From the NCBI GenBank assembly GCA_938039675.1, contig CALHUI010000003.1, positions 62,001-126,000 of the forward strand: a stretch of 64,000 bases of DNA, in the 5' to 3' direction. This DNA is from an uncultured Cytophagales bacterium. Its GTDB lineage: Bacteria > Bacteroidota > Bacteroidia > Cytophagales > Thermoflexibacteraceae. The position numbers and the translations under genes are program-made. The notes under the pieces were generated by a model. That model was given only the letters and a program-made list of their open reading frames with translations. It searched no databases and was not told the DNA's origin. Of the stretch, positions 1,554 to 64,000 are shown in pieces. The stretch's first letter is position 1. Every line of letters starts with the position of its first letter.

Positions 1554-1610
1554 TGCGCATGGGTTTGCTGTTGCCTTGAAATGGTTGTTATGGTTACTCG
1601 GCTTATTCAT

Positions 1611-1639: not shown

Positions 1640-1673
1640 ATGAAGGTTGTCAGGTTTAGAGTGCTTAACTACA

Positions 1674-3587: not shown

Positions 3588-3704
3588 CGCATTCAGGTTT
3601 GAATTTTTAACAATTCAACCCAAAGCCATACAGCAAAAAACAAACGACCTTGCGGAAATTTTCCGAAGTATCCTTAGCCTTTCACCCGAAAGCCTTGAAT
3701 TTGT

Positions 3705-3893: not shown

Positions 3894-3920
3894 AATGTAG
3901 TAAAATTTGCAGAACAACAA
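3892..3920 (-). promoter_or_regulatory. Bacteroidota-type promoter for the riboswitch-btuB transcript
   Basis: On the minus strand a TTGTTG block (3915-3920) is separated by 18 nt from TACATTTG (3892-3899), close to the Bacteroidota consensus TTG-N19-TAnnTTTG. The -7 box touches the first bases of the aptamer, so transcription should start within the first helix region of the riboswitch. Confidence 0.7.
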
Positions 3921-4018
3921 GGGAAAAGAAAAAAACTTTTGGCAAGTTCGGATTTTACGGACTAATTTGGCTGTTCAATCGTTAAATAGGTAGAACCCCC
4001 CGAAAAACCAACTGACCA

Positions 4019-5260: not shown

Positions 5261-5359
5261 GCGGATAATTCATTGCACAGTTTACCGCCTTCTGTTTTGC
5301 CTGTTGGATGAATGAAATCGTAGGTGATTTTTATAAAATACCGAAAATCAATTAGTAAA

Positions 5360-5386
5360 CCTGTTGCTTCTCTAAGCACCGACAGG
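5360..5386. terminator. weak hairpin between convergent genes
   Basis: The 5261-5493 gap between clpX and the convergent dehydratase gene holds no gene. An imperfect hairpin forms from CCTGT/ACAGG and GCTT/AAGC around a CTCT loop, with a bulge on each side. No clear T-run follows, so a termination role is only a guess. Confidence 0.3.
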
Positions 5387-5493
5387 CTTAAAATATGTGA
5401 ACACTGTGCGCTTTCTATAAGTAAAGAATACCAAATCTGCTCAACTGCACCGGTCGGCTGAAATTCTTTGCAAAAACAAGTAAGGCAAGTGCG

Positions 5494-6468
5494 TTATGAG
5501 AGGCCGGCAATGTGCTCATACTGCGCAAAGAACACATCCAAATCCACATTACCGCCGGTGAGAATCAGCCCGATGCGTTTGCTTTGCAGGGCTTCGCGGC
5601 GGTTTTGCAGCAATACGGCCAGCGGCAGCGCACACGAAGGCTCAATTACGATTTTGAGCCGTTCCCACACCAAACGCATGGCTTTGACAATCCATTCTTC
5701 ATCGGCGATTAAAATATCTGTCACATGCTCGCGAATGATGCCAAAAGTTTTATCGCCCAAAGAAGTGCGTAAGCCGTCGGCAATTGTCTTGGGATTGACC
5801 GAAGGAATGATTTGCCCCGCATGAAACGAGCGGTACGCATCGTTGGCATTGTGAGGTTCTGCACCCAGCACTACTGTTTGCGGCGCAAAATAATGTGCCG
5901 AAAGTGCTGTGCCGCTCAAAAGTCCGCCGCCGCCGCAAGGGGCGATTATGTAGTCTAAGTTTTCTGCCTGCTGCAACAACTCGCAGGCACAACTTGCCTG
6001 CCCTGCAATGGTGCGGTAATCGTTGTAGGGCGGAATGAACTCCGCACCTGTTTCCGCAACTATTTGTGCGAGTGTGTCTTCCCGTGCCTGCAAAGTCGGT
6101 TCGCAGAAAATGATTTGCCCGCCTGCCGCTTTAGTTCCTTCTATTTTTGACTTAGGCGCATTGGAAGGCATCACTACGTAGGCAGGAATACCGCGCAGTT
6201 GGGCAGCTTTTGCCAATGCTTGCGCATGGTTGCCCGAAGAGTGCGTAGCGACCCCCTTCGCCGCTGCCTCATCGGAAAGCGAGAAAACGGCGTTCGTAGC
6301 CCCGCGCATTTTGAAAGACCCCGTGCGCTGAAAGTTTTCGCATTTGAAAAACAGCTCCGCACCTGCCAACTCGTTCAGCGAGCGGCTGGTCAAAACGGGA
6401 GTTTGGTGAACATACGGACGAATACGCGCTACGGCAGCTTCTATAGCGGATTTATCAGGCTTACTCAT
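5494..6468 (-). CDS. PLP-dependent threonine/serine dehydratase (or serine racemase)
   Basis: This 324-residue fold-type II PLP enzyme carries the Schiff-base motif TGSFKMRGA (Lys53), the substrate/cofactor loop SSGNHAQ (77-83) and the phosphate-binding loop PCGGGGLLSG (178-186). It also has the C-terminal LTGGNVDLD. It should dehydrate L-threonine or L-serine to the 2-oxoacid plus ammonia. The compact length, without a C-terminal ACT regulatory domain, fits the catabolic TdcB/serine-racemase branch rather than biosynthetic IlvA. The two cannot be separated from sequence alone. It is a single gene, convergent with clpX. Confidence 0.88.
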   Translation of the reverse strand: MSKPDKSAIEAAVARIRPYVHQTPVLTSRSLNELAGAELFFKCENFQRTGSFKMRGATNAVFSLSDEAAAKGVATHSSGNHAQALAKAAQLRGIPAYVVMPSNAPKSKIEGTKAAGGQIIFCEPTLQAREDTLAQIVAETGAEFIPPYNDYRTIAGQASCACELLQQAENLDYIIAPCGGGGLLSGTALSAHYFAPQTVVLGAEPHNANDAYRSFHAGQIIPSVNPKTIADGLRTSLGDKTFGIIREHVTDILIADEEWIVKAMRLVWERLKIVIEPSCALPLAVLLQNRREALQSKRIGLILTGGNVDLDVFFAQYEHIAGLS

Positions 6469-30672: not shown

Positions 30673-30708
30673 GTTCCAAATAGGGGCTAACTTCCGTGCA
30701 ATTTTAAT

Positions 30709-30716
30709 CAAAAGTA
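30709..30716 (-). promoter_or_regulatory. -7 box of the first PBP gene
   Basis: On the minus strand TACTTTTG fits TAnnTTTG and is 36 nt before the GTG at 30672. If used, it rules out the TTG start at 30750. Confidence 0.5.
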
Positions 30717-30791
30717 TGCAACAATTATTGCAGGCGCTGTTTTCCGACAACCAAAATTGTTATCTTAACAGGCATTAACGATTCTGCGCTT

Positions 30792-38518: not shown

Positions 38519-40789
38519 ATGTATCTGCGAATCATACGTTTAGGCTGGACGCTGATTGCCGCCGGTTTTTTGTTTTTGGGAGTTTGGGTGTTGGCAGTCA
38601 GTAACGATTGGGGGGGCTTGTTCGGCGGCATGCCCAACCTCACCAAGTTAGAAAACCCCAAGTCGGAAGTAGCCTCAGAGCTGTGGTCTGCCGATGGCGT
38701 GTTGCTGGGTAAATATTTCCGTCAGAATCGTACGCCCGTCCGCTATGAAGAAATTTCGCCCAACCTGCTCAATGCTTTGTATGCCACCGAAGACATTCGC
38801 TTTGAAGACCATTCGGGGATAGACTTTCGCGGTACGTTTTCCATACTTTTTGACTTGCTGCGCGGCAAGCGTCGTGGCGGTAGTACCATCACCCAGCAGT
38901 TGGCAAAAAACCTGTTCAGTACGCGCCAAAACCTGAAAGGTTCGTTGAGCGACCTGCCGCTGCTTGGAACGGTCATTGCCAAAACCAAAGAGTGGATTCT
39001 CGCAATCCAGTTGGAGCGCTCCTACACCAAACGCGAAATTGTTACCATGTACCTCAATGAGGTAGAACTTGGCAATAATGCTTTTGGCGTGAAAGTAGCG
39101 GCACGCACCTATTTCAACACAACCCCCGACAGCCTTACCGTGCCGCAGGCAGCCACGCTGGTAGGTATGCTAAAAGCGCCTACACGCTACAACCCCATAC
39201 GCAACCCCGAATTGGCACTGTTGCGCCGCAATACGGTTATAGAACAAATGGAAAAATACGGATTTATCAGCGAAGCGGAGGCAGAGCGCTACAAGCGTGC
39301 TTCTATCAAGGTAGATGCCGTGCAGTCCGATGACCACACCAGTGGTATTGCTACCTATTTCCGTATGGAAGTGCGCAAAGACTTGCTTGCGTGGTGTGCC
39401 AAAAACGGCTACGACCTTTTTGCCGACGGGTTGAAAATTTACACCACCATCGACTCACGTATGCAGCGCTATGCCGAAGAAGCCATTGCCGAGCACATGA
39501 AAGAGTTGCAGAGTAAGTTTTTTGCACATTGGAAAGGCCGCAATCCGTGGGTAGATGAAAACTTCCGCGAACTGCCCAACTTTGTTGATAGGGCTGTTAA
39601 GCGCACCGAACACTACCGCGTACTAAAAAGCATCTACGGAGACGATTCTATCTCTATCTACCGCGAACTGAATAAGCCTGTCCGGATAAAAGTTTTCAGT
39701 TGGACGGCAAAAAACAACGAAATAGATACGGTAATGAGTCCGATTGACTCTGTGAAGTATTTCAAAAAGTTTCTTCATGCCGGTATGATGAGTATGGACC
39801 CGCACACCGGCTATGTAAAAGCATGGGTAGGTGGCGTGAACTATAAGTTTTTTAGTTATGACCATGTGAAACAAGGAGCACGTCAGCCCGGCTCAGCATT
39901 TAAACCGATTGTGTATGCCACTGCTATCAACGAGCAGGCCTATTCTCCCTGCACCGAGGTAGTAGATGCGCCGCAAACCTTTGTTTTGGAAAACGGTGAA
40001 ACATGGACTGCCAAAAACTTTGGCGCATACACCGGCAATACTTATACGCTGCGGCAGGCATTGGCACAGTCTATCAACACTACCGCTGCTTTTCTGATGC
40101 GGCGCATCCAACCGCGCAGAGTAATTGAATATGCCCGCAAAATGGGTATTACCACCCCCTTAGACGAAGTGCCTTCGCTAGCTTTGGGGGCAGGTGGCGA
40201 TGTTTCCGTGTATGATTTGACAGGTGCATACGCCACTTTTGTCAATAAAGGAGTTTGGACTCAGCCTACCTACATCACCCACATCACCGATAAAAACGGC
40301 AAAGTACTTTATCGGTTCATTCCGCAAAAGCGCGAAGTTTTTGACGAGGAAAAGGCATACATTATGACCTACATGTTGCGTGGGGCTACCGAAGAGCGCA
40401 ACGGAACCGGTTTGGGGCTGTATCGCTACAAGTTCCGTCAGGGTACGCAAGTGGCCTGCAAAACCGGTACTACCCAAAACTACTCCGACGGTTGGTTCAT
40501 GGGTATGACCAAAGACTTGGTTACCGGCATATGGGTAGGCGGCGACGAGCGCAGTATTCACTTCCGCACAGGCGACTACGGGCAGGGTTCGCGCATGGCT
40601 ATGCCTGCATTCGGTATCTACATGGACAAGATTTTTGCCGACCCCCGTTTAGAGCCCTACAATACCAAAGGAGAGTTTCCCAAACCCGAAAAACTGACCA
40701 TAGAGCTGGATTGCTCTAAGGCAAAAGCCCTTCGGCTGGATTCGACTTCTTATGTGCCGCCTTCGGGTAATCCGCTGAATGATTTTTAG
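38519..40789 (+). CDS. penicillin-binding protein 1A (class A, bifunctional), copy 2
   Basis: This 756-residue protein is a paralogue of the PBP at 28246. It has one N-terminal helix (about 8-30), a GT51 domain (ATEDIRFEDHSGIDFRG and GGSTITQQLAKNLF) and a transpeptidase domain with PGSAFKP (SxxK), AQSINT (SxN) and CKTGTTQNYSDGW (KTG). Shared blocks such as NLTKLENPKSEVASELWSAD versus its partner's IAQLENPKIPTASELYTEDG show close kinship. It synthesises peptidoglycan. It lies 50 nt after the beta-CASP gene and has its own promoter-like -7 box. Confidence 0.94.
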   Translation: MYLRIIRLGWTLIAAGFLFLGVWVLAVSNDWGGLFGGMPNLTKLENPKSEVASELWSADGVLLGKYFRQNRTPVRYEEISPNLLNALYATEDIRFEDHSGIDFRGTFSILFDLLRGKRRGGSTITQQLAKNLFSTRQNLKGSLSDLPLLGTVIAKTKEWILAIQLERSYTKREIVTMYLNEVELGNNAFGVKVAARTYFNTTPDSLTVPQAATLVGMLKAPTRYNPIRNPELALLRRNTVIEQMEKYGFISEAEAERYKRASIKVDAVQSDDHTSGIATYFRMEVRKDLLAWCAKNGYDLFADGLKIYTTIDSRMQRYAEEAIAEHMKELQSKFFAHWKGRNPWVDENFRELPNFVDRAVKRTEHYRVLKSIYGDDSISIYRELNKPVRIKVFSWTAKNNEIDTVMSPIDSVKYFKKFLHAGMMSMDPHTGYVKAWVGGVNYKFFSYDHVKQGARQPGSAFKPIVYATAINEQAYSPCTEVVDAPQTFVLENGETWTAKNFGAYTGNTYTLRQALAQSINTTAAFLMRRIQPRRVIEYARKMGITTPLDEVPSLALGAGGDVSVYDLTGAYATFVNKGVWTQPTYITHITDKNGKVLYRFIPQKREVFDEEKAYIMTYMLRGATEERNGTGLGLYRYKFRQGTQVACKTGTTQNYSDGWFMGMTKDLVTGIWVGGDERSIHFRTGDYGQGSRMAMPAFGIYMDKIFADPRLEPYNTKGEFPKPEKLTIELDCSKAKALRLDSTSYVPPSGNPLNDF

Positions 40790-48822: not shown

Positions 48823-51800
48823 ATGATACAAGTTGTTACCCGATTCTCTTTTTTGCTGACCTTTTTATTGTGGGTAGCGTGGCATCCGCTATGGTCGCAA
48901 ACAGCTGATTTTAGAGTAGGAACGGCAGGCGAGCCGCTGACAGGCGGTTGCGGCATAGCTACCTACAAGTTTTTTGACCAGAGTTCAAGCCTTCCGGCCG
49001 ACTTAACCACTATTCGCTACAATTGGGATTTTGGCACAGGCAGCCCTGTGATAGGGATTCCCAATGACCCGAGTATTACCGAGCCGGAGCGTGCCTACGG
49101 TGCTCCGGGGCGCTATATGGTCAGGTTGCGCATTACTAATGCCGCCGGTACGGTTACTATCAGCGAACGTACGCGCGAGGTGATTGTTTATGACAGGGCA
49201 ACGCCCAACTTCACTGCGCCTCCCGGTATTGGCTGTACACCCTACACGGTAACATTTAGCGATATAACCGTAGCAGGAACTGTGGCAACAGGCGGCTTGA
49301 TAGGTGATATTGTCCGCTGGACATGGAATTTTGGAGACGGAACAACCATTACAGGCACCGACCCGTCCTTTCGGACACCGACGCACACTTATAACTTCCC
49401 CGGCGACTATCAGGTAACGCTGACGGTTGAAACTTTTGCCGGTGGCAAGGAAACTTGTCAGGCATCTATCATTCGCCCCAATGCAGTCCGTGTGCGCTGG
49501 TCGCCGCAGGCTGCTTTTCGTTTGCAGAACGGTCCGGCTTGTTCGCCGCCGTTTTTGGCACGTTTTGAAAATCTTTCTACGGTACGTACCAGTCCGCCGC
49601 CACCGGGGGTAATTGCCAGCTATTTATGGGAGTTTTTCGATGAAAATGGCAACCCCGCAGGCACAAGTACGGATGAGAATCCTACCTTTGTTTACAGCAC
49701 TTTTGGTATTTACCGCGTGCGTCTGACCGTTACTACTACCGACGGCTGCTCGGCAGTTCGTGATGTGCCTGATGCAATTATTATCAGAAACAACATCGCG
49801 GATTTTGACATTCCGCCCATTTATTGCGCAAACAGCGGGCAACAGTTTTTTGACCGCTCCTCAGCAGGGGCTGTAGGTTGGTCGTGGAACTTTGGTGATG
49901 GTGACACCTCTACGGCACAAAATCCGAACAAAACCTACACTGTACCGGGCACTTATCCCGTAACGCTGACCACTACCTTTATTGACGGTTGTACAGTAAG
50001 TGTTACCAAAAACGTAACGATTCGTCCGCTACCCGATGCTAATTTTACGGTCAGTCCGCCTGATAATCTTTGCAATATTGGGCCGCGCCAATTAATTCCT
50101 GCACTGAATAATCCTGCCGATTACCTCTATGAGTGGCGCGTTACGGACCCTGCCTTTGCATTCGGCGAAGCCATTTATACAACAGCAACGCCTACGCACA
50201 ATTTCACGGCGTTCGGCACCTACCCGATTCGCCTGACCATTACCGACCGTACAACAGGCTGTTCCAATACGCTGACGCGCAATCTGGTACTGGCAGAAGC
50301 TGTTCCGCGTTTGGAATTTATCGGAGCGCAGCCTACCACTACTTGTGCACCTGTTACTTTTAACTTTACGGCGCGTAACAGCATTTCGGTAGAAGGTATT
50401 ATTCGCTACGATTTTGATTTTGGCGATGGTTCACCCGTAGTGAGCATCACACCGCCGTTTACGCCTACCGGCTTTCCTGATGTTTCGCATACATATACTA
50501 CGCCCGGTGTTTACACACCGCGTGTAACCATTACGACTGTTAGTGGCTGTACGCGCACGGGCAATTTTAATCAGCAAGTTAAAGTTGGCACTCCTCCGCC
50601 TAATACTATTACGCTGACTCCAAGCCGCAACGGCTGTGCGACAATTGGCGGCGTGGGTATTACGTTTACGCCCAATATTCCTCCGGGGGTTTGTGCGGAT
50701 AGCGTAGTTTATGATTTCGGCGACGGCTCCGCACCGCGCAATGTGGGCAACGTAGGACCGGTTACGCATGAGTTTCGCACCATCGGTACTATTACGGTTA
50801 ATGCTATTTTTTATTGCAACGGTTGCCCCACGGTTAGCCCGATTACGGCTACGGTGAATGTGGACGGCCCCATTGCATTATTTAACGTGGTTGGCGGCGG
50901 AGTAGCTTGCACAAGCGGCAGCACCTTTAACTTCCTGAATACCAGTGTAGATGCAGCAGCACCCGCAACTACTACCTACGAATGGGACTTTGGCGACGGC
51001 TCGGCAACGCAAATTATACCTCGCGGCGACCCGGTATCGCACACCTACGCTAACCCCGGAGTTTACACGGTTCGTCTGCGTGCCATTAGCTCTAATGGCT
51101 GTGTAAACGAAAGAACTGCCGTTGTCAATATTTCCGTTTCTGCACCATCCTTTACGGTAACGCCAAACCCCTCAGGGCCAATTTGCAGCAATACACCTAT
51201 TCGGTTTACCAGCACCTCAACTACCAGCGGTACAATTATTAGCTATCGTTGGGATTTCGGCGACGGCAATGTTGTAACCATCGACGGCCCGGCGGGAGCT
51301 TCGGTAACGCATACGTATGCACCGCGTGTAGCACCCTATCAGGCAACACTGACCATTACTGAGTCCAACGGTTGTGCCGAATCGGTGAGTGCGCCGGTCA
51401 ATATTACGATTCAGGGAGTCATTGCCAATTTTAGCAACCCCTCGGTAGTTTGTGTGGGAGAACCCGTCAATTTTACGGATGCCTCTACAGTATTCCCTAA
51501 CAGCAATGCCATTACGTCTTGGAACTGGTTCTTCCAAGATGGTATTGCCAATCCGTTCCAAAACCAAACTGTACAGAATCCGACTTATACTTTTTTGCGT
51601 CCCGGCACATGGAACGTAACACTGAGCGTTGCCGATAATAACGGTATCGGCCCTTGTACGGCAACTATTACCCGTCAGGTTACTGTGTTGCCGCGTCCTA
51701 CGCCCGGCTTTAATGTGTCTGCTACCACGTTCTGTGCGGGCAGCAATATGCAGATTACAAGTACGGCAAGCGATATTCCCGGCGGCACAGGCTTAACCTA

Positions 51801-54800
51801 TGCATGGGATTTCGGCACGGCTTCGGCAAACTATACCGCCGATTTAAGCAACCCTGCTAACCCTGTAATTCGCTACAATAGTGCAGGTAGCTACACTATT
51901 ACACAAACCGTTACAGCAGGTAATACTTGTTCAGTAACATTCAGCCGAGTGATTAACGTGATAGCGCCTGAAGCTACTATTTCTGCACAAGCAACCACAG
52001 GCCCTCCGGTGTTTGCGCCTGCACAATTAGTGGTGAGTTGTCCGCCGGCAGCAGTGCGTTTCCGTGCCACGCCGTTCCCTGATGCGGACATTGAGGAATA
52101 CTTCTGGGAATTTGGCGACGGCAACCGCTCGTTTGACCAAAACCCTGAAAATACTTATGTCAATCCCGGCGTTTACACGGTTCGCTTGACTATGCGCAGC
52201 CGTGCAGGCTGTACGGTCGTTCGTGAAATGACCAACTTCATCTTTGTAGATGGTCCTTCGGGAGAGTTTATTTTTACCCCGACAGATGTTTGTGCAAACA
52301 ATGTTGTTACATTAACGGCTACTAATTTGCAAAACGTAGCCTTTTATCAGTGGGACTTTGGCGATGGTACACCTGCTACTGCTCCTGTTGCATTCAACGC
52401 GGCTGCTTATGCGGCAGCGGGTAATCAATTGCAGGTTACGCATGTATATTCACGCCCGGGTACTTTTCAGCCCGTTCTGATTTTACAGGATAACAATACT
52501 CCGGCTTGTCGGGTATTTATTCGTCCGAATGGAGGGTTACGTGTGCGGGTAAGCGGCAAACCTACGGCTGCTTTTAGCTGGCCTAACAATAGCGGCAATA
52601 TCTGCGAAAACAGCAGTTTTATTGTTACCGATGAAAGTACAACAGATATAGATACTCCACCGACGCTTTCTCCGCAGATTGTTCGCTGGCAATGGGAGGT
52701 ATTTGACACAGACCCTGTGAGCAATCCCTCGGCAATACCAATTCGCTCGCAGGTGATTACTTCGGCACCGGGTAATTATACTTTTGCCAATAATCTTCCA
52801 GCCGGAAACTATTGGATTCGCTTGCGCGTGCGCACTGCTTTTGGTTGTGAAGATGAAGAGGTTAAGACAATCCAATTAGTCGCACCGGTTATCTATGCCG
52901 ATTTTGAAAACGATGCTTATATATGCGTAGGCAGCCCTGCCAACTTTAATGCAGGCAGTTCTAATGACCCTGCTACACGCTGCTTCACACCCGGTGGAAC
53001 GCCTGCCGCACCGGGGCCGTGTAATGCACCTAATGTGTTGCGTCCGCCTTTCTCATGGAGTTTTAGCGGCGGAACACCTTTGCCTTTGCTCTACGAATGG
53101 GAGTTTTCCGTCGGGGCAACCGTTCTGGGAACGGCTACGGGGCAGCGTCCTACGTTTACTTTCCCTGTCAATGCATCCAATCCGAGCCAGCCGTATGACG
53201 TAACCGTTCGCTTAACGGTGCGCGATGTCTTGCTGTGTACTTCGGGTGTAATCAAAACGGCCATTATTACCGTAAACCCGCTGCCACGCGCAGCCTTGAA
53301 CCCTTCAGATATAACCATTTGCCACAACGGAGGTATAAACAGTGCTTCATTTACTGCACAAGCAGACCCCGCTATTCCGGGTACGGTGCAATACCGCTGG
53401 CAAGTGGATGCAGGTGCAGGTTTTGGCGACTTGACAGACGGAGGCGTGTATAGCGGTGCCGGAACGCCAACGCTGAACTTGACCAACGTTCCCGAGTTTA
53501 TGAACGGCTGGCGTTTCAGAGTGCGCATTCAGAACACGAACAACATTCAGTGCGAGGCCTTCAGCACCCCTGCCACTCTGACCGTGATTCCTACGCCGAC
53601 AACGGCAACGGTGGTTTCACCGATTGATGTTTGCGATGCCACTACTGTTACCCTGACGGGTAATGCACCCGCAGCAGGGCGCGGCACAGGGCGCTGGGTG
53701 CAGTTGAGCGGCCCTACAACCATCAACTTTGGGGCGCAAATCAGCAATCCGACAGCAATCATTCCCGTCAGCAACGGGGTTTATACGTTCCGTTGGGAAA
53801 TTACCACCACTGCCAACAGTGTAAATTGCGTATCGCAGTCGCCTGTGCTGACCGTAAACAGCGGACGCTCTGCCGATGCAGGCCCCGACCAAGTCGTTTG
53901 TGAATTCATCAGCGGCACTACTACCCGCGTAGAGGTAACGTTGGCGGGCAATGACCCTGCCTTAGGCGGCGGCGGAACAGGCACGTGGACGGTCATCAAT
54001 CGCCCTTCGGGTTCACCTGTGCCTACCTTCATACCTAATGCAAATGCGCATAATGCAGTCATTACCGACTTGCGCCCGGGTACTTATACCTTGCGTTGGA
54101 GCATTGCAGGCGCGCCGGGCTGCGGCAATACGCAAGATGACATGGTCATTACCGTACATCCGCTGCCCATTATGCCTACGCTGCAAGACCAAACCGCTTG
54201 CGCCAACAGCACTGTGAGCCTCTCGGGCGGCGGATTGGTAGGTTTGGATATTCAGTGGGAAATGGCACTGCCTTCTAACCCGACCAATTTTACCCCTTTG
54301 GCAGACGGCGCGGCTTTTGGTGCAACATTCAGCGGCTCAACTACTAACACGCTCACCATTGCCAATGTGCCCACAGGGTTGAATGAGGCACTGTTCCGTG
54401 TGCGCGGTACGAATCCTGCTACGGGCTGTTTCAACTATACCAACCCTATTACCCTGACCGTAGCCGATGAGCAAAACAACGAAGTTACCGATGCCAGCAT
54501 TTGCGCCAACGAAACTTCGGTGAATATCATTGTGCGTAATGCAAAAGCCAATCATACCTACCGCCTGTTCCGCGGCGGCACTACCTACGGTACGCAAACA
54601 CCTGCCGTAAACGGCGATATAACCTTTACGCTGTCGGGAGGCGATATGCCGACCTCAACCACTTCATACAGCGTGGAAGTAACCGCGCCCGTAACAGGGG
54701 CAGGCAGTTGCGTAGTTGTATTACCCGACCAAGCCGTTATCACCGTTACGCCTGTTAATCAGGCGGTTGCCGATGCAGATTTTGATGCCTGTGATGTTAC

Positions 54801-57800
54801 GACCGTTACCCTGACGGGTAATATCCCGATTATCACGGGTGCGGGCGCATGGTCGCAGGTGAGCGGGCCGCCCGTGCCACCTGCTAATCGCACCATTAGC
54901 GGTCCTGATAATAACATACTGACGCTGAGTAACTTACAGGCGGGGCGTTACACTTTCCGCTGGCGCATTACCAACAGCACCTGCCCTGATTCGGAAGACT
55001 TGGTAACTTTCACCATTACCAACTCTGCCAATGCGGGCGCAGACCAACAGTTCTGTTTGCCGACAACAAGTACAACCTTAGCGGGTAACTTGCCTTACAC
55101 AGGAACGGCGGTTTGGTCGTTCGTATCGGGTCCAAGCGGCGTTACGCCCGTGCTGACCCCCGTACCGCTAACCCCTGATGAAATTACGGCGGGCGTATCA
55201 AGTCCGTACAGCGCAACGGTTACGGGCATGACTGCGGCGGGTGTGTATCGCTTCCGCTATGCCATCAGCGGCGGGGCTTGTCCACCCAGTGAAGACTTTG
55301 TGGATGTGTTCATTGCTGCGCCTGCCAATATTATCACGGCTGATACAAGGCTTTGCAACGTGAACAGCTTTGTAATAACTGCCGAAGTACCCGTTGTAGG
55401 TGCGGGTAATTGGTCGCTGGTGTTCACCGATGGTCCCGTACCGACGCTGGCAACTTCGGGAACAGGCAGCACTACGCTTACCGCCAACGGCTTGGGCAGA
55501 GGTCGTTATGTTTTTCGCTGGACGGTAACAGGTTCGCCATGCGGCACGGGCGGCAATACCTTTGATGAAATTCAGATTTTCAACGATGCACCCGCCAATG
55601 CGGGCGCGGATATAGCCCTTTGCGGCACGGTGAACCCGACTTCGGTACAACTCAATGCCGTGCCTGCCGTGAGTGGCACAATCGGTACATGGACGCAAGT
55701 GGGCGGTCCTGCCTTGCCGGCGGGCAGCTTTGTCAATCCGAATGCGGCGAACACCTTTGTAAATAACCTCATCCCCGGCAATGTGTACGATTTCCGCTGG
55801 ACAATCAGCGGCGGCTCTGCCTGTCCGCAGACAGAAGACGATGTGCGCGTAACTGTTTCGCAACCGCCTTCGCCTGCCGTAGCAGGTACGAACAAGATAC
55901 TTTGCACTATCAATACCGCCGTAATGGATGCCACGCCGCCCGTGTTCGGCACGGGCTTGTGGACGCTGGTAAGCGCACCGGCAGGGGCTACGCCCGTAAT
56001 TGTGAATCCTTCTTCACCCACTACGGCAGTTAATAACCTGAACATCATTGGCACGTACACTTTCCGCTGGACGGTAAGCAATCCGGGTTGCCCCGATAAT
56101 ACTGCCGATGTAAATATTGTCGTCCAATTGCCTGTGGCTGCCAGTGCGGGTGCTGATGCCAATATATGTGCTGCTACTTATACTATGGCTGCTAATGCTG
56201 TTCCAGCAGGGGCTACGGGGCAATGGACATTTGTTTCCGGACCTGTTACGCCTAATATTACTACGCCAAGTTCACCAACTACAGGCATTACAGGCATCAA
56301 TGCACCGGGTGAATATGTGTTCCGATGGCGTTTGAGCAACGGCACTTGTATTTCTGAAAGCACCGTAACCCTTCGCCGCGCCATTGTGGATGCAGGACCC
56401 GACGTAAATATTTGCGGAACGGGGAACACCGTTACGCTGAACGCTCAACCCCCTGTGGTAGGAACGGGCAGATGGTCGTTCATTTCAGGCCCGAACACGG
56501 TTATATTCTCTGACGATTTAGACAGAAATGCCACTGTCAGCGGCTTGACGCAATCGGGCACTTATATCATCCGATGGAGGGTAACAGGCACCCCTTGCGG
56601 CACTGTGTTTGATGATTTGGTGATTCGTGTGGCAGCACCTGCCAATGCAGGGGCAGACATCAGCGTTTGCGGTACGACTAACCCCGTAACGCTGGGCGCA
56701 ACGCCTGTGGTAGATCTGGGTACGGGCACATGGACGGTTGTTTCAGGTCCGAATACACCAACTTTTTCAAGTGCTACGGCTGCCAATGCGCAATTCGGTA
56801 CGGGTGGTACTTTGCAGGTAGGCACATATGTGTTGCGCTGGAGCGTAACGGGTTCAGTCTGTCCGAATAGTGAAGATTTCGTAACCGTAACCGTTTCGCC
56901 TTCCACAATCTCGGCGGGGGCAAACCAAACGCTCTGTTTGGTTTCCGCAGGAAGTACAACTACTGCTAACCTGTCGGGTACTGCACCCGTAACGGGAACG
57001 GGCACATGGACGCAAGTGGGCGGTCCGACCTTGCCTGCGGGCAGCATTGCCAACCTGAACAATCCGAACACAAGCGTGAGCAATTTGGGTGCGGGCATTT
57101 ACGTATTTCAATGGGCAGTAACGGGCGCAACCTGCCCCGGCAGTGCGCCTATCGTAACTGTTACGGTAGCTGAACCGCCGAGCATCATTACGCCGCCTGT
57201 TTCGCCGATTTGTGCAACGGGAACAACTGCCACCGTAACCGTAAGCGGCAACGTGCCTGTAATAGGAACGGGTACATGGTCGCGGGTATCGGGCCCGGGG
57301 GCTGCACCGACCATTTCCGTTTCATCAAGCGGCGGGGTAAGTGCGGCAACATTCAGCGGCTTGGAAGTAGGTACGCACGTATTGCAATGGGCATTCAGCG
57401 GAACAGCACCTTGTTCCTTCACACCTGCACAAGTTACGGTTGTTGTACAGCCGCAACCGACGCTTGCAACTGTTTCGCCTGCTACGCAAAGCGTATGCGC
57501 CGACCCTGCATCGGGCTTTGGCAGCGCAACGCTGACGGGCAGTGTACCTGCGGCGGGCAATACGGGCGCATGGTCGCACAGCGGACCGGGCACACCGACG
57601 CTTTCGCCAAGCGGCACGGGCGGCAGCACGCTCAACGTGAGCAATCTTGCCGTCGGTACGCATACTTTCACATGGACTATCACCAACGGATGCGGCACTT
57701 CTGCGGCATCGGCAACCGTAACGGTCAATCCGACCAATGCGCCGGCATCCATCGCCGCGCCGCCTGCCACTACCGTTTGCGGCTCACCGACGGGCACGAT

Positions 57801-60800
57801 TAACCTGACGGCTAACGCCCCCGTTGCGGGAACGACAGGCACATGGACGCGCATTTTAGGTCCGGGCACGGCACCTGCTTTCGCACCGAATGCCAACAGT
57901 GCAAGCGTGAGCATCAGCGGCTTGGCAGTTGGTACGCACCGCTTCCAATGGGCATTGACAAACCCTGCTTGCCCTGCCAACAACAGCACGGCAACCATTG
58001 ATATTACAGTTATTGCCGCTGACCCCCCAGCGGCGATTGTTTCCGCACCTGCTTCCGATGTCTGCACCACAGGCATAACGGGGCTGGGCAGCGTGAACCT
58101 GACGGGTAATTTGCCTGCATCGGGAACGGGTACATGGTCGAGGGTTTCGGGTCCGGGCACGGCAACATTGGCAACAAGCGGTGCGGCAGGCGAAAATGCT
58201 GCTTTCTCTAACCTGCAACCGGGCTTGCATACGTTCCAATGGACAATCAGCAATGCCGTTTGCGGTACGACTACATCGGCACAAGTTACTGTGCATATTT
58301 TAGAGCGCGACCCTGTGGCAGTCATTGACCCTGCACCTGCCAACGTCTGCGCCGACCCTGCCACCAATCGCGGGGCGGTAACGCTCAATGGCAACGTTCC
58401 GACAAGCGGTACGGGTACTTGGACGCGTCAGAGCGGTCCGGGTACGTTCACGCTGGTAACAGCAGGCACAAGTGGCAGACAAGCCACTTTTAGCGACTTG
58501 CAGGTAGGCGCGCACGTATTCCGTTGGACTATCAACAACGCGGCTTGCGGCAGCACCTTTGCCGAAGTGAGCGTTACGGTGCAAGAGCCTACCCCTGTGG
58601 CAACCATCACGGGCAACCTGAATGTTTGCGCCGACGACCCGACGGGTACGCTGGGTTCTACCATATTGGCAGGCAATAACAGCTACGTAGGAACGGGCAC
58701 ATGGACGCGCATAGGCGGCACGGGCGATGCCACCGCCTTGGCAATTACCATCGGCGGCACAAACAACAACGTGGCAACCATTACGGGTATGGGCGTAGGT
58801 ACGCACGTATTCCAATGGGAAATGACCAACGGCGTGTGTCCGCCCACATCGGCACAAGTAACCGTAACGGTGAATCGCAACAATCCGCAGGCAGACATTG
58901 CGGGCGCGAACCCGACCATTTGTACCGACCCCGTAACCAACTTGGCGCAAATCACACTGACAGCTAACGAACCCGTTGTAGGTACGGGCACATGGACACG
59001 CACGGGCGGCACTGCCGACGGTACGGGTGTTGCCATTGCGGCTTCTACCACAGGTACGGGCAATGCCATTGCCAACATTACGGGTATGCAACCGGGTACG
59101 CATATTTTCCGCTACACGCTCAACAGCGGTTGCGGCACTACCTTCGACGAAATCACCGTAACGGTGAATCCGTCGAACCCTGCGGCTGCCATTGCCACCG
59201 CACCGGGTACGGTTTGTACCGACCCCGCCACGGGCAGAGCCACGCTCACATTGGTAGGCAATGAACCGCGCACGGGAACGGGCACATGGACACGTGTGGG
59301 CGGCGCAGGCGACCCGACAGGTCATGCCATCAATACATCAGGCACTTTCGGCAGAGTAGCCACCATCACGGGCTTACTGCCAGGCGAACACATCTTCCAA
59401 TGGCAATTGGCGAACAGTTGCGGCATAAGTTCCGCCACCTTCACAGTGAATGTGGAACAGTCCAACCCGCCGGCTGCCATTATTTCAACGGTCAATACCG
59501 TATGTACCGACCCTGCCACGCAGCGGGCAAACATAACCCTGCAAGGCAACACGCCGATTACGGCGGGTTCGGGTACGTGGTCATACACGGGCGGAACAGG
59601 CAGCACAGCGGACATGGTCATCAGCACGCCTAACAACCCGACCGCCAACATTACAGGCTTGCAAGTAGGCACGTACCAGTTTACATGGACGCTTGCTAAC
59701 AGTTGCGGCACAAGCAGTGCTTCGGTAACCGTAACGGTGAATCCGTCTAACCCTGTGGCAGATGCGGGCGCAGATGCTACCCGCTGCGATGCGCCGGGCG
59801 GTGCTTCTATCACCCTGAACGGCAATGCACCGATTTCGGGAACAGGCACATGGACGCGCACAGGCGGTACAGGTTCACCAACGGGCGTAATCATCACCCC
59901 GACGGGGGCGACTTCTGCCGACGTAACGGGCATGGGTGTTGGTACGCACGAGTTCACATGGACACTGACCAACGGTTGCGGCACAAGTTCCGACGTAATG
60001 GTTGTAACCGTATTGCCGACCAATCCGCCTGCCAATGCAGGACCGAATCAGGCAGTTTGTACCGATTTGGCAACGGGCAGAGCTTCGGCAACGCTCACGG
60101 GCAACGCCCCGACAGTCGGCACGGGTACGTGGGCACGTGTAGGCGGCACAGGCAACCCTGCGGGCATCATCTTGAACCAATCGGGTAATGTGTTGAACGT
60201 AAGTAATATGCTGCCCGGTACGCATATTTTTGAGTGGACGCTGACAAGCCCAAGTTGCGGCAGCACAAGCAGCCTTGTTACGGTGTTTGTCAATGAATCT
60301 AATCCGAATGCAGCCATTACGACAACGCCGCCTTCGCCCGACATTTGCGCCGACCCGACTTCCAATTTGGGCAGCGTTACGCTGACAGGCAACACCCCGA
60401 ACAGTGGTAGCGGCACATGGACACGCATCGGCGGCACGGGTAGCACCTCATCTATGAGCCTTAGCGTAACGGGAACAACATTGAACGCTACCGGATTGGG
60501 TGTAGGCACGCATACTTTTGAGTGGCGATTTACCAGCCCTTGCGGCAGTTCGGCAGCTACCTACACCGTAAATATCATCCGTCAGAATCCGCCTGCAACG
60601 GCGGCGGCAGTCGCTACGGTAGTATGCGCCAACCCTGCCACGGGCTTGGGTACGGTGAGCCTGCAAGGCAACGCCCCTGTGTCGGGTACAGGTACATGGA
60701 CACGGGTAGGTGGCACGGGTAGTGCGGCAATTATGAGTATAGCTTCCCCGAACAACCCCAATACCGACGTGAGCGGCTTGGGTGCAGGTACGCACATCTT

Positions 60801-63800
60801 CCGCTGGACGCTGGCTAACGGCGTATGCGGCACAACAAGCGCAGACATTACCGTAACGATAACCGCACCGAATCCGCCTGCTGCCATTACGGCAACACAA
60901 ACAACCGTTTGTGCCGATGTGGCAACCAACTTGGGTACTGTAACCCTGAACGGAACAGTTCCCGTATCGGGTACGGGCACGTGGACACGCACAGGCGGCA
61001 GCGGCAGCACGGCAGCTATGAATATTACTTTGGGCGGCACGGGCAACAGCCAAGCAACCATTTCAGGCTTAGGTGTAGGTACGCACATTTTCCAATGGAC
61101 ATTAGATAATGGCATATGCGGCACAAGTGCTGCCACCATCACCATCACCGTAGCCAGCCCGATTGTGGACATCGGACCTGACCAAACGATTTGTACCAAT
61201 CCTTCGGGAACGGCTGATTTCACCCTGACGGGTCCTGTTCCCGTATTGGGAACTACCTCATGGCAGCGCGTAGGCGGCACAGGCAGCGGTTCGGTTATCA
61301 TTAGCACTTCGGGCGTGTCGGGCAGCGTAGCCACTGTAACGGGTATGGGTCCGGGCACCCACATCATCCGCTACACCATCACGGGCAGCCCTTGCGGAAC
61401 TATTCAGGACGAAGTAATCCTGACCGTAGTGCCAAGCACCATTTCAGCGGGCTCAGACCAAACCCTTTGCCTGCCGACAGGTGCAAACACCACCGATGTT
61501 ATCCTGACAGGCACCGTACCAATTGTAGGAACGGGCAACTGGCTGCGCGTAGGCGGTACGGGTTCCGGCAGCCCCGTGCTAAACGTTTCAGGTCCGGGCA
61601 ATAGTCAGGTTTCTATTACGGGCATGAGTGCGGGTACACACATCTTTGAATACAGCATTACGGGTAGCCCTTGCGCCCCTGCGGCAGCCCGCGTAACCAT
61701 TACGGTGGCAAATTCTGCTTCACCTGCGGGCGCGGGTGCAGACCAAAACCTCTGCAACACTACAACGGGAACGTTGAGTGCCATTCCTGCCATAGGCGGA
61801 ACGGGTCGCTGGACACAGATTTCAGGACCGAACACGGCATCTATCGCCAATCCTTTGCAGGCAAATACACCGGTTACGGGACTTGTGGCGGGTACTTACG
61901 TGTTCCGCTGGTCTATCACGGGCGGTTCTTGTCCTGATTCGTTTGACGATGTAACCGTAAACGTGGCAGAACCTGCCAATGCCGGACCCGATAAGGCACT
62001 TTGTCAGGCAACAAGCGTAACAATGGCGGCTAACAGCCCTGTCAACGGGCGCGGTTTGTGGCAGCAAATCAGCGGACCTAATGCGGCGCGCATTGAAGAG
62101 CCGACCAATCCGCGAACTGTCATTGCAGGCTTGCGTCCGGGTACATATACTTTCCGCTGGACAATCACAGGCAGCGGCTGCCCCGAAACTTCCGACGATG
62201 TAGTCGTTACCATCAGTGCGCCTGCAGTGGCAGGTACTGCGCAGACTGTGTGTGTAGGTAGCGTTGTACGCCTTGCCGCCGAACCTGTGGCAGTAGGCAC
62301 AGGTCGCTGGACACAAGTAGAAGGTTCTGCCGTTACGATTGATAACCCCACTTCGCCTAATGCCACATTAAGCAACCTTGCACCGGGCAACTACCGCTTC
62401 CGCTGGACAATCACGGGCGGCGATTGCAACCCGGGCAGCAGCGATGAGGTTACAATTACTGTTGTAGGCATCACGGCGTCAGAGGGTCAAGCAAACGTAA
62501 GCGATGCAGAATACAGCACCTGCCCCAATGAAATTCCAAGCAACGTAACTATTACCGTATCGCCGACCCGTACGGGCGTTCGCTACGAACTGCGCAATGG
62601 CTCAACCGTGTTGGCAAGTGCTTTGGGTAATGGCGGTGCGCTGCGCTTTACTATTCCTGCACCTGTGCAAAGCCGCGAACTGACCGTAGTAGCCATTGCA
62701 TCAGCTAACGGCTTAACTTGTGCTGAGGTAGAACTAATCGACCGTGCAGTAATTACGGCGCGTCCTTGTCCACCGCCGCCTGTAACCGACCGCCCTGTAA
62801 TTGGCGTAGCCAAACAGGCACTGCCTGCTGTGCGTCAAGTAAACGGTGCGTTTCATATCCCGATTGTCATTACGGTGCGCAACTACGGCAACGTACCGCT
62901 GACCAACATTGTGGTATCGGACGATATGACCAACGTATTCCCTGCACCTGCGCGTTACAGCATTGTGCGCCAGCCGACCGCAACGGGTTCGTTGGTAGTC
63001 AATCCGCAATTTGACGGAACGGCTGCACAGCCGAATTTGGTAACGGGCGGCAGATTAGAAGTAGGTGAATCGCAAACGGTAACTTTTGTGGTAAGCCTGA
63101 TTCCGAACCGCGCCACAGGACCGTTCTTTAATACTGCTATTGCAGAAGGTTCGCACAACGCAACCCGCGTGCGCGATATTTCGGTGGATGGACAAAACCC
63201 TGACCCGAACTTTGATGGCGACCCGCGTGAAACAAGCCCAACCATTATCCAAGTGCCGCAGCCTGTCAATCGTGCACCGATTGCCGTAGATGACCTGTTC
63301 ACTGTGCAGGGTTGCAGCGAAAACAACGGCGGCAATATCTTAGCCAATGACCGCGACCCCGACGAAGACGAACTGACCGTAACCGTCGTAACCAATGCCA
63401 CAACCCGCCATGGCGGACGCATCAGCATTGCCGCCGACGGTACGATTAGCTACACGCCTGCTTTCGGCTTTACGGGAACGGATGAGTTTACTTACGAAGT
63501 ATGCGACCGTGTAACGCCGCCATTGTGTGCACGCGCTACGATTACCTTCAACGTAATGGCTTGTCCGAATCGTCCGCCGCGTGCACCGGATATTACTCTG
63601 ACTACCGACAACTGTACCAATATTGACCAAGTGCTGGAAATTCCGTTGGTAGATGCAGACGGCGACCCCGTGCGCGTAACCGTTATCTCTGATTTGGTAA
63701 CGCCGCTGCGCGGCATCTTGAACCTCTCTGCTACGGGCAGATTAACTTACCGTCCGGCACTAAATGCAGAAGGGCAAGAGCGCATCACTTACCAAGTATG

Positions 63801-64000
63801 CGACAACCGCAACCCTGTGCTGTGTGCTACGGGAACAATTTTCATCAACGTGTTCCTCTGCACCAACCAGCCGCCTGTAGTAACGCCGCGCCGCGAAAAC
63901 ACCGACAACTGTACCGAAATCAGGGGCAGCGTGTTGCAAAACGTAACCGACCCGAACGGCGACCGCGTATCGGTACGTGCCGTAACGGGGGCACGCTCCA
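48823..64000 (+). CDS. giant secreted PKD/Ig-like repeat protein (3' truncated by window edge)
   Basis: One frame is open from ATG 48823 to the window end, at least 5,059 residues. A Sec signal peptide (about 1-26, FLLTFLLWVAWHPLWSQ) is followed by about 14 PKD-type domains (48901-53570, with recurring WDFGDG-like motifs). About 30 tandem Ig-like repeats come next (53629-62463), then a DUF11-like domain (62780-63250, ITVRNYGNVPLTNIVVSDD) and cadherin/VCBS-like domains (from 63270, NRAPIAVDDLF and NILANDRDPDEDELTV). Such proteins in Bacteroidota are cell-surface or secreted adhesins, often exported by the type IX system and sometimes tied to gliding. The expected C-terminal sorting domain lies beyond the window. 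Frame continuity was checked in frame across many lines and at the end. Confidence 0.95.
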   Translation, partial: MIQVVTRFSFLLTFLLWVAWHPLWSQTADFRVGTAGEPLTGGCGIATYKFFDQSSSLPADLTTIRYNWDFGTGSPVIGIPNDPSITEPERAYGAPGRYMVRLRITNAAGTVTISERTREVIVYDRATPNFTAPPGIGCTPYTVTFSDITVAGTVATGGLIGDIVRWTWNFGDGTTITGTDPSFRTPTHTYNFPGDYQVTLTVETFAGGKETCQASIIRPNAVRVRWSPQAAFRLQNGPACSPPFLARFENLSTVRTSPPPPGVIASYLWEFFDENGNPAGTSTDENPTFVYSTFGIYRVRLTVTTTDGCSAVRDVPDAIIIRNNIADFDIPPIYCANSGQQFFDRSSAGAVGWSWNFGDGDTSTAQNPNKTYTVPGTYPVTLTTTFIDGCTVSVTKNVTIRPLPDANFTVSPPDNLCNIGPRQLIPALNNPADYLYEWRVTDPAFAFGEAIYTTATPTHNFTAFGTYPIRLTITDRTTGCSNTLTRNLVLAEAVPRLEFIGAQPTTTCAPVTFNFTARNSISVEGIIRYDFDFGDGSPVVSITPPFTPTGFPDVSHTYTTPGVYTPRVTITTVSGCTRTGNFNQQVKVGTPPPNTITLTPSRNGCATIGGVGITFTPNIPPGVCADSVVYDFGDGSAPRNVGNVGPVTHEFRTIGTITVNAIFYCNGCPTVSPITATVNVDGPIALFNVVGGGVACTSGSTFNFLNTSVDAAAPATTTYEWDFGDGSATQIIPRGDPVSHTYANPGVYTVRLRAISSNGCVNERTAVVNISVSAPSFTVTPNPSGPICSNTPIRFTSTSTTSGTIISYRWDFGDGNVVTIDGPAGASVTHTYAPRVAPYQATLTITESNGCAESVSAPVNITIQGVIANFSNPSVVCVGEPVNFTDASTVFPNSNAITSWNWFFQDGIANPFQNQTVQNPTYTFLRPGTWNVTLSVADNNGIGPCTATITRQVTVLPRPTPGFNVSATTFCAGSNMQITSTASDIPGGTGLTYAWDFGTASANYTADLSNPANPVIRYNSAGSYTITQTVTAGNTCSVTFSRVINVIAPEATISAQATTGPPVFAPAQLVVSCPPAAVRFRATPFPDADIEEYFWEFGDGNRSFDQNPENTYVNPGVYTVRLTMRSRAGCTVVREMTNFIFVDGPSGEFIFTPTDVCANNVVTLTATNLQNVAFYQWDFGDGTPATAPVAFNAAAYAAAGNQLQVTHVYSRPGTFQPVLILQDNNTPACRVFIRPNGGLRVRVSGKPTAAFSWPNNSGNICENSSFIVTDESTTDIDTPPTLSPQIVRWQWEVFDTDPVSNPSAIPIRSQVITSAPGNYTFANNLPAGNYWIRLRVRTAFGCEDEEVKTIQLVAPVIYADFENDAYICVGSPANFNAGSSNDPATRCFTPGGTPAAPGPCNAPNVLRPPFSWSFSGGTPLPLLYEWEFSVGATVLGTATGQRPTFTFPVNASNPSQPYDVTVRLTVRDVLLCTSGVIKTAIITVNPLPRAALNPSDITICHNGGINSASFTAQADPAIPGTVQYRWQVDAGAGFGDLTDGGVYSGAGTPTLNLTNVPEFMNGWRFRVRIQNTNNIQCEAFSTPATLTVIPTPTTATVVSPIDVCDATTVTLTGNAPAAGRGTGRWVQLSGPTTINFGAQISNPTAIIPVSNGVYTFRWEITTTANSVNCVSQSPVLTVNSGRSADAGPDQVVCEFISGTTTRVEVTLAGNDPALGGGGTGTWTVINRPSGSPVPTFIPNANAHNAVITDLRPGTYTLRWSIAGAPGCGNTQDDMVITVHPLPIMPTLQDQTACANSTVSLSGGGLVGLDIQWEMALPSNPTNFTPLADGAAFGATFSGSTTNTLTIANVPTGLNEALFRVRGTNPATGCFNYTNPITLTVADEQNNEVTDASICANETSVNIIVRNAKANHTYRLFRGGTTYGTQTPAVNGDITFTLSGGDMPTSTTSYSVEVTAPVTGAGSCVVVLPDQAVITVTPVNQAVADADFDACDVTTVTLTGNIPIITGAGAWSQVSGPPVPPANRTISGPDNNILTLSNLQAGRYTFRWRITNSTCPDSEDLVTFTITNSANAGADQQFCLPTTSTTLAGNLPYTGTAVWSFVSGPSGVTPVLTPVPLTPDEITAGVSSPYSATVTGMTAAGVYRFRYAISGGACPPSEDFVDVFIAAPANIITADTRLCNVNSFVITAEVPVVGAGNWSLVFTDGPVPTLATSGTGSTTLTANGLGRGRYVFRWTVTGSPCGTGGNTFDEIQIFNDAPANAGADIALCGTVNPTSVQLNAVPAVSGTIGTWTQVGGPALPAGSFVNPNAANTFVNNLIPGNVYDFRWTISGGSACPQTEDDVRVTVSQPPSPAVAGTNKILCTINTAVMDATPPVFGTGLWTLVSAPAGATPVIVNPSSPTTAVNNLNIIGTYTFRWTVSNPGCPDNTADVNIVVQLPVAASAGADANICAATYTMAANAVPAGATGQWTFVSGPVTPNITTPSSPTTGITGINAPGEYVFRWRLSNGTCISESTVTLRRAIVDAGPDVNICGTGNTVTLNAQPPVVGTGRWSFISGPNTVIFSDDLDRNATVSGLTQSGTYIIRWRVTGTPCGTVFDDLVIRVAAPANAGADISVCGTTNPVTLGATPVVDLGTGTWTVVSGPNTPTFSSATAANAQFGTGGTLQVGTYVLRWSVTGSVCPNSEDFVTVTVSPSTISAGANQTLCLVSAGSTTTANLSGTAPVTGTGTWTQVGGPTLPAGSIANLNNPNTSVSNLGAGIYVFQWAVTGATCPGSAPIVTVTVAEPPSIITPPVSPICATGTTATVTVSGNVPVIGTGTWSRVSGPGAAPTISVSSSGGVSAATFSGLEVGTHVLQWAFSGTAPCSFTPAQVTVVVQPQPTLATVSPATQSVCADPASGFGSATLTGSVPAAGNTGAWSHSGPGTPTLSPSGTGGSTLNVSNLAVGTHTFTWTITNGCGTSAASATVTVNPTNAPASIAAPPATTVCGSPTGTINLTANAPVAGTTGTWTRILGPGTAPAFAPNANSASVSISGLAVGTHRFQWALTNPACPANNSTATIDITVIAADPPAAIVSAPASDVCTTGITGLGSVNLTGNLPASGTGTWSRVSGPGTATLATSGAAGENAAFSNLQPGLHTFQWTISNAVCGTTTSAQVTVHILERDPVAVIDPAPANVCADPATNRGAVTLNGNVPTSGTGTWTRQSGPGTFTLVTAGTSGRQATFSDLQVGAHVFRWTINNAACGSTFAEVSVTVQEPTPVATITGNLNVCADDPTGTLGSTILAGNNSYVGTGTWTRIGGTGDATALAITIGGTNNNVATITGMGVGTHVFQWEMTNGVCPPTSAQVTVTVNRNNPQADIAGANPTICTDPVTNLAQITLTANEPVVGTGTWTRTGGTADGTGVAIAASTTGTGNAIANITGMQPGTHIFRYTLNSGCGTTFDEITVTVNPSNPAAAIATAPGTVCTDPATGRATLTLVGNEPRTGTGTWTRVGGAGDPTGHAINTSGTFGRVATITGLLPGEHIFQWQLANSCGISSATFTVNVEQSNPPAAIISTVNTVCTDPATQRANITLQGNTPITAGSGTWSYTGGTGSTADMVISTPNNPTANITGLQVGTYQFTWTLANSCGTSSASVTVTVNPSNPVADAGADATRCDAPGGASITLNGNAPISGTGTWTRTGGTGSPTGVIITPTGATSADVTGMGVGTHEFTWTLTNGCGTSSDVMVVTVLPTNPPANAGPNQAVCTDLATGRASATLTGNAPTVGTGTWARVGGTGNPAGIILNQSGNVLNVSNMLPGTHIFEWTLTSPSCGSTSSLVTVFVNESNPNAAITTTPPSPDICADPTSNLGSVTLTGNTPNSGSGTWTRIGGTGSTSSMSLSVTGTTLNATGLGVGTHTFEWRFTSPCGSSAATYTVNIIRQNPPATAAAVATVVCANPATGLGTVSLQGNAPVSGTGTWTRVGGTGSAAIMSIASPNNPNTDVSGLGAGTHIFRWTLANGVCGTTSADITVTITAPNPPAAITATQTTVCADVATNLGTVTLNGTVPVSGTGTWTRTGGSGSTAAMNITLGGTGNSQATISGLGVGTHIFQWTLDNGICGTSAATITITVASPIVDIGPDQTICTNPSGTADFTLTGPVPVLGTTSWQRVGGTGSGSVIISTSGVSGSVATVTGMGPGTHIIRYTITGSPCGTIQDEVILTVVPSTISAGSDQTLCLPTGANTTDVILTGTVPIVGTGNWLRVGGTGSGSPVLNVSGPGNSQVSITGMSAGTHIFEYSITGSPCAPAAARVTITVANSASPAGAGADQNLCNTTTGTLSAIPAIGGTGRWTQISGPNTASIANPLQANTPVTGLVAGTYVFRWSITGGSCPDSFDDVTVNVAEPANAGPDKALCQATSVTMAANSPVNGRGLWQQISGPNAARIEEPTNPRTVIAGLRPGTYTFRWTITGSGCPETSDDVVVTISAPAVAGTAQTVCVGSVVRLAAEPVAVGTGRWTQVEGSAVTIDNPTSPNATLSNLAPGNYRFRWTITGGDCNPGSSDEVTITVVGITASEGQANVSDAEYSTCPNEIPSNVTITVSPTRTGVRYELRNGSTVLASALGNGGALRFTIPAPVQSRELTVVAIASANGLTCAEVELIDRAVITARPCPPPPVTDRPVIGVAKQALPAVRQVNGAFHIPIVITVRNYGNVPLTNIVVSDDMTNVFPAPARYSIVRQPTATGSLVVNPQFDGTAAQPNLVTGGRLEVGESQTVTFVVSLIPNRATGPFFNTAIAEGSHNATRVRDISVDGQNPDPNFDGDPRETSPTIIQVPQPVNRAPIAVDDLFTVQGCSENNGGNILANDRDPDEDELTVTVVTNATTRHGGRISIAADGTISYTPAFGFTGTDEFTYEVCDRVTPPLCARATITFNVMACPNRPPRAPDITLTTDNCTNIDQVLEIPLVDADGDPVRVTVISDLVTPLRGILNLSATGRLTYRPALNAEGQERITYQVCDNRNPVLCATGTIFINVFLCTNQPPVVTPRRENTDNCTEIRGSVLQNVTDPNGDRVSVRAVTGARS
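48901..53570 (+). repeat. PKD-domain array within the giant gene
   Basis: This stretch encodes about 14 PKD-type domains of roughly 90-130 residues. Characteristic cores include TWNFGDGTTITG, WSWNFGDGDTST, YDFDFGDGSPV, YEWDFGDGSATQ, YRWDFGDGNVVT, YFWEFGDGNRSF and YQWDFGDGTPAT. Most are followed by a (T)YxxPGxYxVxLT strand. Many domains also carry an early Cys (CTPYTVTF, CSPPFLARF, CAPVTFNF) and a late GC (DGCSAV, DGCTVS, SGCTRT), which could form one disulfide each. Confidence 0.85.
53629..62463 (+). repeat. about 30 tandem Ig-like repeats within the giant gene
   Basis: Repeats of about 83-98 codons share the plan: Cys near the start, L(T/A)GN.P, GTGTW or a variant, SGP or GGTGS, then G(T)H/Y.F.W and a second Cys. 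Measured GTGTW-to-GTGTW spacings are 294, 291 and 273 nt at 58981, 59275, 59566 and 59839. Outer repeats (53.6-57.2 kb and 61.7-62.5 kb) carry SGP and FRW..TG..CP...DDV. Inner repeats (58.6-61.2 kb) carry C(A/T)DP.T, GTGTWTR.GGTG and GTHIFQW. Two units resembling neither type interrupt the array at 54151-54770. Confidence 0.88.
62780..64000 (+). other. DUF11-like and cadherin/VCBS-like domains at the visible end of the giant gene
   Basis: After the Ig-like array a domain with ITVRNYGNVPLTNIVVSDDM and VGESQTVTFVVSL resembles the DUF11 conserved repeat. Three units starting NRAPIAVDDLFTVQ (63271), NRPPRAPDITLTT (63571) and NQPPVVTPRREN (63868) follow. Each has a Cys-containing entry and D/E-rich turns (NDRDPDEDELTV, DADGDPVRVTV) typical of calcium-binding cadherin-like or Big_9 domains. 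The third is cut by the window edge. Confidence 0.75.

Follow-up and report, generated by a model that had tools for sequence, protein, structure and literature searches.

A giant predicted type IX cargo encoded at the edge of the window

The DNA analysed here (the window) is a 64,000-nucleotide stretch from the genome of an uncultured Cytophagales bacterium, corresponding to G000:C3:62001-126000 in the parent genome. It encodes two class A penicillin-binding proteins (transglycosylase plus transpeptidase; 28246-30750 and 38519-40789, less than 10 kb apart) and, on the plus strand, an open reading frame (48823..63999) that reaches the window edge without a stop, as recognized from both the ORF call and the translation. 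When the frame was joined to the downstream contig, the stop was found at 64441-64443, 443 nt past the window; the full protein, hereafter the giant, comprises 5,206 aa (536 kDa, pI 4.75) and contains 114 cysteines. The preliminary description of this DNA, which had reported a single giant frame of more than 5,000 residues still open at the edge, was therefore correct. The frame is genuine and not due to chance, since two genomes of the same genus encode orthologues of 5,671 and 5,689 aa that are 95% and 90% identical to it. Promoter and terminator scans gave no clear excess over shuffled sequences.

The giant, all of whose domains are encoded on the plus strand, begins with a putative signal peptide that, read from the sequence, looks classical by eye (residues 1 to ~25, MIQVVTRFSFLLTFLLWVAWHPLWSQ|TADF; 48823..48897). 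It is followed by an array of ~13 PKD domains, mostly with one spaced cysteine pair each (48898..52857), as judged from cysteine spacing and from Pfam, which recognizes 11-12 PKD_4/PKD stretches in residues 1-1300. Two transitional Ig-like domains, deduced from cysteine spacing (pairs 1400/1472 and 1500/1577; 52858..53622), have no Pfam name and lead into the main Ig-like array (53629..62466). There, an HMM built from eight units identified 30 units of ~80-96 residues at residues 1603-4548 and missed one or two further ones in residues 1787-1975; these units correspond to the K319L-like_PKD matches that Pfam reports through the middle of the giant. A last Ig-like domain, likewise placed by its cysteines (4567/4633; 62467..62802), precedes a DUF11 domain (residues ~4679-4777; 62854..63162) whose Pfam score just exceeds the cut-off (25.3 versus 24.6 bits). 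Then come three Pfam Big_9/Cadherin_5 repeats with four cysteines each (residues ~4816-5113; 63268..64161, the third ending beyond the window), a region that also matches the NCBIfam tandem-95 model below its cut-off. The protein ends, beyond the window, with a CHU_C / Bac_Flav_CTERM type B sorting domain (residues ~5118-5199; ~64171-64440), which scores 86.9 bits with PF13585 and 48.9 bits with TIGR04131 (cut-off 35) and marks the giant as a type IX cargo of the type B class. In the giant, Pfam detected Ig-like and PKD-type domains only, and no recognizable binding domain.

The cysteines of the stalk are strikingly regular. Exactly two, in the same two columns, are present in 162/162 Ig-like units of five orthologues, together with one invariant tryptophan per unit. 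Between residues 1400 and 4633, the spacings separating the 70 cysteines alternate between 58-77 and 22-32 residues in 69/69 intervals, compared with a maximum of 29 intervals in 20,000 random placements. In an AlphaFold2 model of two Ig-like units (pLDDT 95.3), one cysteine of the unit lies where a short early strand ends, and its partner just ahead of the last strand. The cysteine pattern and these strand positions suggest one disulfide per stalk domain, and the predicted bonds would bypass ~2,290 of 3,233 residues in the covalent path. If the cysteine pairs are indeed bonded, most of each domain is bypassed, so that the stalk could not unravel under load.

The downstream cassette and its conservation

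The giant gene is followed, beyond the window, by three genes on the plus strand. A PorP/SprF gene (64540-65466; PF11751 291 bits, TIGR03519 287.6 bits) starts 96 nt downstream, i.e. in the adjacent position of a cognate PorP for a type B cargo. The next gene (65507-67504; defined from ORFs, Pfam and NCBIfam) encodes a PorE-like protein, whose TPR-PD40-OmpA domain order is the one expected beside a PorE-linked type B adhesin; CHU_0125_OmpA and PorE are its highest-scoring NCBIfam models, and neither reaches its strict cut-off (336.8 bits versus 600 for PorE). The fourth gene of the cassette, placed from ORFs and coordinates (67640-70489; L013:9641-12490), encodes a 949-aa protein in which a ~120-residue domain recurs five times ahead of OmpA; its relatives contain three to five such domains. 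This domain has no Pfam name, and its model (pLDDT 92.3) gave no PDB match below E 0.001, the best weak ones being PA1624 and DcrB.

The domain order given in the preliminary description (signal peptide, PKD array, about 30 Ig-like units, DUF11/cadherin) is thus the one recovered by Pfam and the unit HMM. Its proposal of a secreted, layered, stalk-like type IX substrate agrees with the CHU_C domain found in frame at the C-terminus and with the PorP/SprF gene directly downstream, the two features for which it had recommended looking; the downstream sequence consequently does not lack secretion and anchoring signals, the finding that it had named as fatal to its proposal.

G002 and G003, which belong to the same genus, keep the order giant-PorP-PorE-like-OmpA, as do G008 and G012, from another genus of the family; in the latter two, the cassette has different flanks, and PorP is separated from PorE by one or two small unrelated frames. 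The giant-PorP-PorE-like order is also found in G054, G056 and G058. The same-genus genome G001 has neither the giant nor the giant's PorP type.

The orthologues of G002 (5,671 aa) and G003 (5,689 aa) are 94.9% and 90.4% identical to the giant, and those of G008 (5,668 aa) and G012 (5,653 aa) 41-42% identical. A scan of genome contigs returned one orthologue, from Bernardetiaceae bacterium SKYG123, which corresponds to G003. Within the genus, dN/dS is 0.06-0.09 for the giant; for its N-terminal PKD array it is 0.04-0.08, and on these sequence comparisons the giant is under purifying selection. Alignments revealed one large difference in length: ~five Ig-like units carried by the two same-genus orthologues (461 and 474 aa) are missing at 60601..60619 (plus strand); compared with G002, the giant lacks 461 aa at residue 3927. 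This gap preserves both the reading frame and the unit register, and no exact internal repeat exceeds 23 nt, which makes a collapse during assembly unlikely; on these grounds, an assembly error was rejected. As the block is present in both G002 and G003, its loss in the lineage of the window is the simpler reading.

The C-terminal part of the giant is related to GhpA

Grappling hook protein A (GhpA) of Aureispira sp. CCB-QB1 (PDB 9flp-9fly) is a 5,898-residue monomer that assembles as a heptamer (PMC13319060; PMC11205867). The C-terminal 1,306 residues of the giant match it at E 1e-128, through six significant stretches that all fall in GhpA 4668-5889 and cover ~1,200 residues of the giant. 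The C-terminal domains of the two proteins align (E 5e-16), GhpA thus being, like the giant, a huge type IX cargo with a type B domain, and the best PDB match of the two-unit Ig-like model is the GhpA base 9fly. Two other giants served as controls: with their C-terminal 1,300 residues, the one in G058 scored 1,997 bits against GhpA and the one in G054 gave no match.

The likeness did not extend further in the parts compared, namely the first 1,633 and the last 1,306 residues of the giant. The first 1,633 residues of the giant, including the PKD array, have no GhpA match even at E 0.01, and GhpA 1-4600 shows no significant stretch with the C-terminal quarter of the giant. By sequence, the giant therefore appears to share its anchor end with GhpA, with no shared shaft found in the parts compared, and we rejected its assignment to GhpA since its N-terminus is unlike GhpA and the C-terminal part alone matches. 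The preliminary description could not match the architecture to a named protein; this holds for the chain as a whole, for which we found no end-to-end match, but not for the C-terminal ~1,200 residues, homologous to Aureispira GhpA.

The GhpA relative of G058 (5,848 aa; L172:249-20000) is followed by a PorP gene and a PorE-like gene, the same neighbours as those of the window's giant, and this PorP ends in ...IDHPRYF, without a tail cysteine. GhpA-type hooks may hence be anchored likewise. To see the ghpA neighbours of Aureispira itself, a near-identical match was sought, and none was present among the 395 genomes drawn.

A T6SS in the same genome, as for GhpA in ixotrophy, was not found, judged by PF17541 alone: this Bacteroidota-type sheath is absent from G000 and present in 8/59 relatives, including G002. 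Predation via a T6SS was rejected on this basis. A Bacteroidota-type TssC (750 bits) is encoded at G002:C26:3425-4717 and is absent from G000, G001 and G003.

The PorP partner carries the proposed marks of a wall-fixed carrier

Two published observations bear on whether a type B cargo moves. In F. johnsoniae, the tail Cys-X-Cys of SprF bonds to GldK and is required for gliding (PMC12635249). In the same species, Fjoh_3952, whose operon includes a PorE-like gene, stays in place, in contrast to the mobile SprB and Fjoh_4750, which have no PorE; that PorE-linked type B cargo is immobile was proposed by these authors on the strength of this single protein (PMC12618676). The PorP partner of the giant contains no cysteine at all, ends in ...IITPRYF and is directly followed by the PorE-like gene, so that it has neither the tail Cys-X-Cys nor the PorE-free surroundings of the SprB carrier. 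No SprB repeat (PF13573) was found in the giant by a Pfam scan of four pieces; a search of its own genome, run without a responding control, gave no match either. For lack of SprB repeats and of a tail cysteine, and given the PorE-like gene, membership of the SprB family was rejected.

The genome encodes GldK, which keeps a cysteine aligned with PorK Cys356, and a GldJ-like protein that scores below the cut-off. None of its PorP proteins has the exact SprF Cys-X-Cys tail. Two orphan PorP/SprF proteins (L055:9908-10921 and L057:9426-10418) end in ...CPIMF and ...CPVF, and this single tail cysteine (...CPxF) is kept in their family orthologues; both may be track-linked carriers that use one cysteine in place of Cys-X-Cys.

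The same genome has a second type B cassette (L058:5262-12080; G000:C2), which comprises a cargo of 1,191 aa whose leucine-rich repeats resemble those of plant receptors, a PorP without tail cysteine and a PorE-like protein. At L059:8241-9662 (minus strand; G000:C31), a single protein of 473 aa unites a PorP/SprF barrel (191 bits) with a peptidoglycan-binding OmpA domain (77 bits), and similar fusions occur in six other genomes of the family. Such a natural fusion supports wall anchoring of PorP barrels.

We then considered the 74 PorP proteins of 13 family genomes. A tail cysteine was present in 0/11 PorE-adjacent PorP, 0/8 OmpA-fused PorP and 26/55 others, so that the 26 PorP with a tail cysteine and the 11 adjacent to PorE do not overlap; 20 have neither a tail cysteine nor PorE nearby, in some cases owing to contig ends. 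Fisher's test gives p = 0.006 for the PorE-adjacent PorP alone and 6e-5 with the OmpA fusions, values that are too strong because they count as independent what amounts to a small number of paralogue clades. It is fair to state that the tail cysteine and PorE adjacency occupy different paralogue groups. Both marks, the cysteine-free PorP and the PorE-like neighbour, place the giant, as far as sequence tells, among the predicted wall-anchored adhesins.

Discussion

The sorting domain, the partner genes, the conserved cassette, the cysteine pattern and the purifying selection, all read from sequence, point to the giant being a static, peptidoglycan-anchored type IX type B stalk adhesin of ~50 domains, apparently pinned by disulfides, and we consider this probable. 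Its route and attachment would be those of published homologues: the giant would be exported by Sec and carried across the outer membrane by the type IX translocon, its type B C-terminal domain remaining bound to the PorP/SprF barrel encoded by the next gene. The PorE-like TPR-PD40-OmpA protein would tie this barrel to peptidoglycan, perhaps with the help of the OmpA protein of the fourth gene, and the whole would be immobile. The Ig-like and PKD domains would form a long stalk that resists unravelling under tension through its one predicted disulfide per domain, with the N-terminal PKD end facing outward, and the presumed role of the giant would be adhesion. PorE-linked type B adhesins are a known category, to which the giant would be a large, well-conserved addition. 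The PG1035-PorP-PorE complex of P. gingivalis (PMC9143113) and Fjoh_3952-Fjoh_3951-Fjoh_3950 of F. johnsoniae likewise join a type B cargo to a PorP-like barrel, adjacent or cognate, and to a PorE-like protein that binds peptidoglycan, and static wall anchoring has been proposed for them as it is here. The giant is far larger than PG1035 and has a PKD/Ig-like stalk; unlike these systems, its cassette contains the extra repeat-OmpA gene and its PorE-like protein falls below the NCBIfam PorE cut-off.

The preliminary description had mentioned gliding, beside adhesion, as a usual role of giant Bacteroidota proteins of this kind; as a gliding factor, the giant would be the functional equivalent of SprB and its PorP/SprF would carry it along the moving GldJKN track. 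The giant does resemble SprB/SprF in its size class, its type B C-terminal domain and its adjacent PorP/SprF carrier, and the genome has GldK and the GldJ-like protein. This reading is nevertheless unlikely: unlike SprF, the carrier has no tail Cys-X-Cys, a PorE-like gene adjoins it, the cargo has no SprB repeats, and the two PorP with a family-wide tail cysteine are better candidates for track carriers, both being kept in G001, which lacks the giant. Still less likely is a filament resembling the grappling hook, in which several copies of the giant would assemble like the GhpA heptamer and catch prey or partner cells. The C-terminal homology to GhpA, the match of the Ig-like model to the GhpA base and the shared neighbours of the G058 GhpA relative fit such a filament; against it stand the unmatched N-terminus, the lack of any significant stretch between GhpA 1-4600 and the C-terminal quarter, and the absence here of the T6SS sheath, although same-genus G002 has it. 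A heptamer with a hook is known for GhpA and would be a prediction for the giant. Finally, a mainly structural stalk of a surface layer or of cell-cell cohesion, serving as a spacer or as protection rather than binding a specific ligand, would account for the lack of a recognizable binding domain and for a unit number that varies without loss of frame; the large and conserved N-terminal PKD array speaks against it, and we consider it very improbable.

The static, wall-anchored adhesin that we favour has implications beyond this locus. Type B adhesins could be sorted from sequence only, a PorE-like neighbour denoting wall anchoring and a PorP/SprF tail cysteine denoting track-driven movement. 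The two marks go back to separate proposals made in 2025 for one species, and they never coincide in the 74 carriers of another family. The arrangement also predicts how GhpA-type grappling hooks attach to the cell, because the gene of a GhpA relative is likewise followed by PorP and PorE-like genes. We tentatively raise the further idea, which we think improbable as it stands, that the giant represents a second kind of grappling hook, the PorP/PorE-like wall socket being common to GhpA-type and PKD/Ig-type giants and the PorP tail, with or without cysteine, setting whether a cargo is track-driven or wall-fixed. If so, wall-fixed giants would be oligomeric capture filaments.
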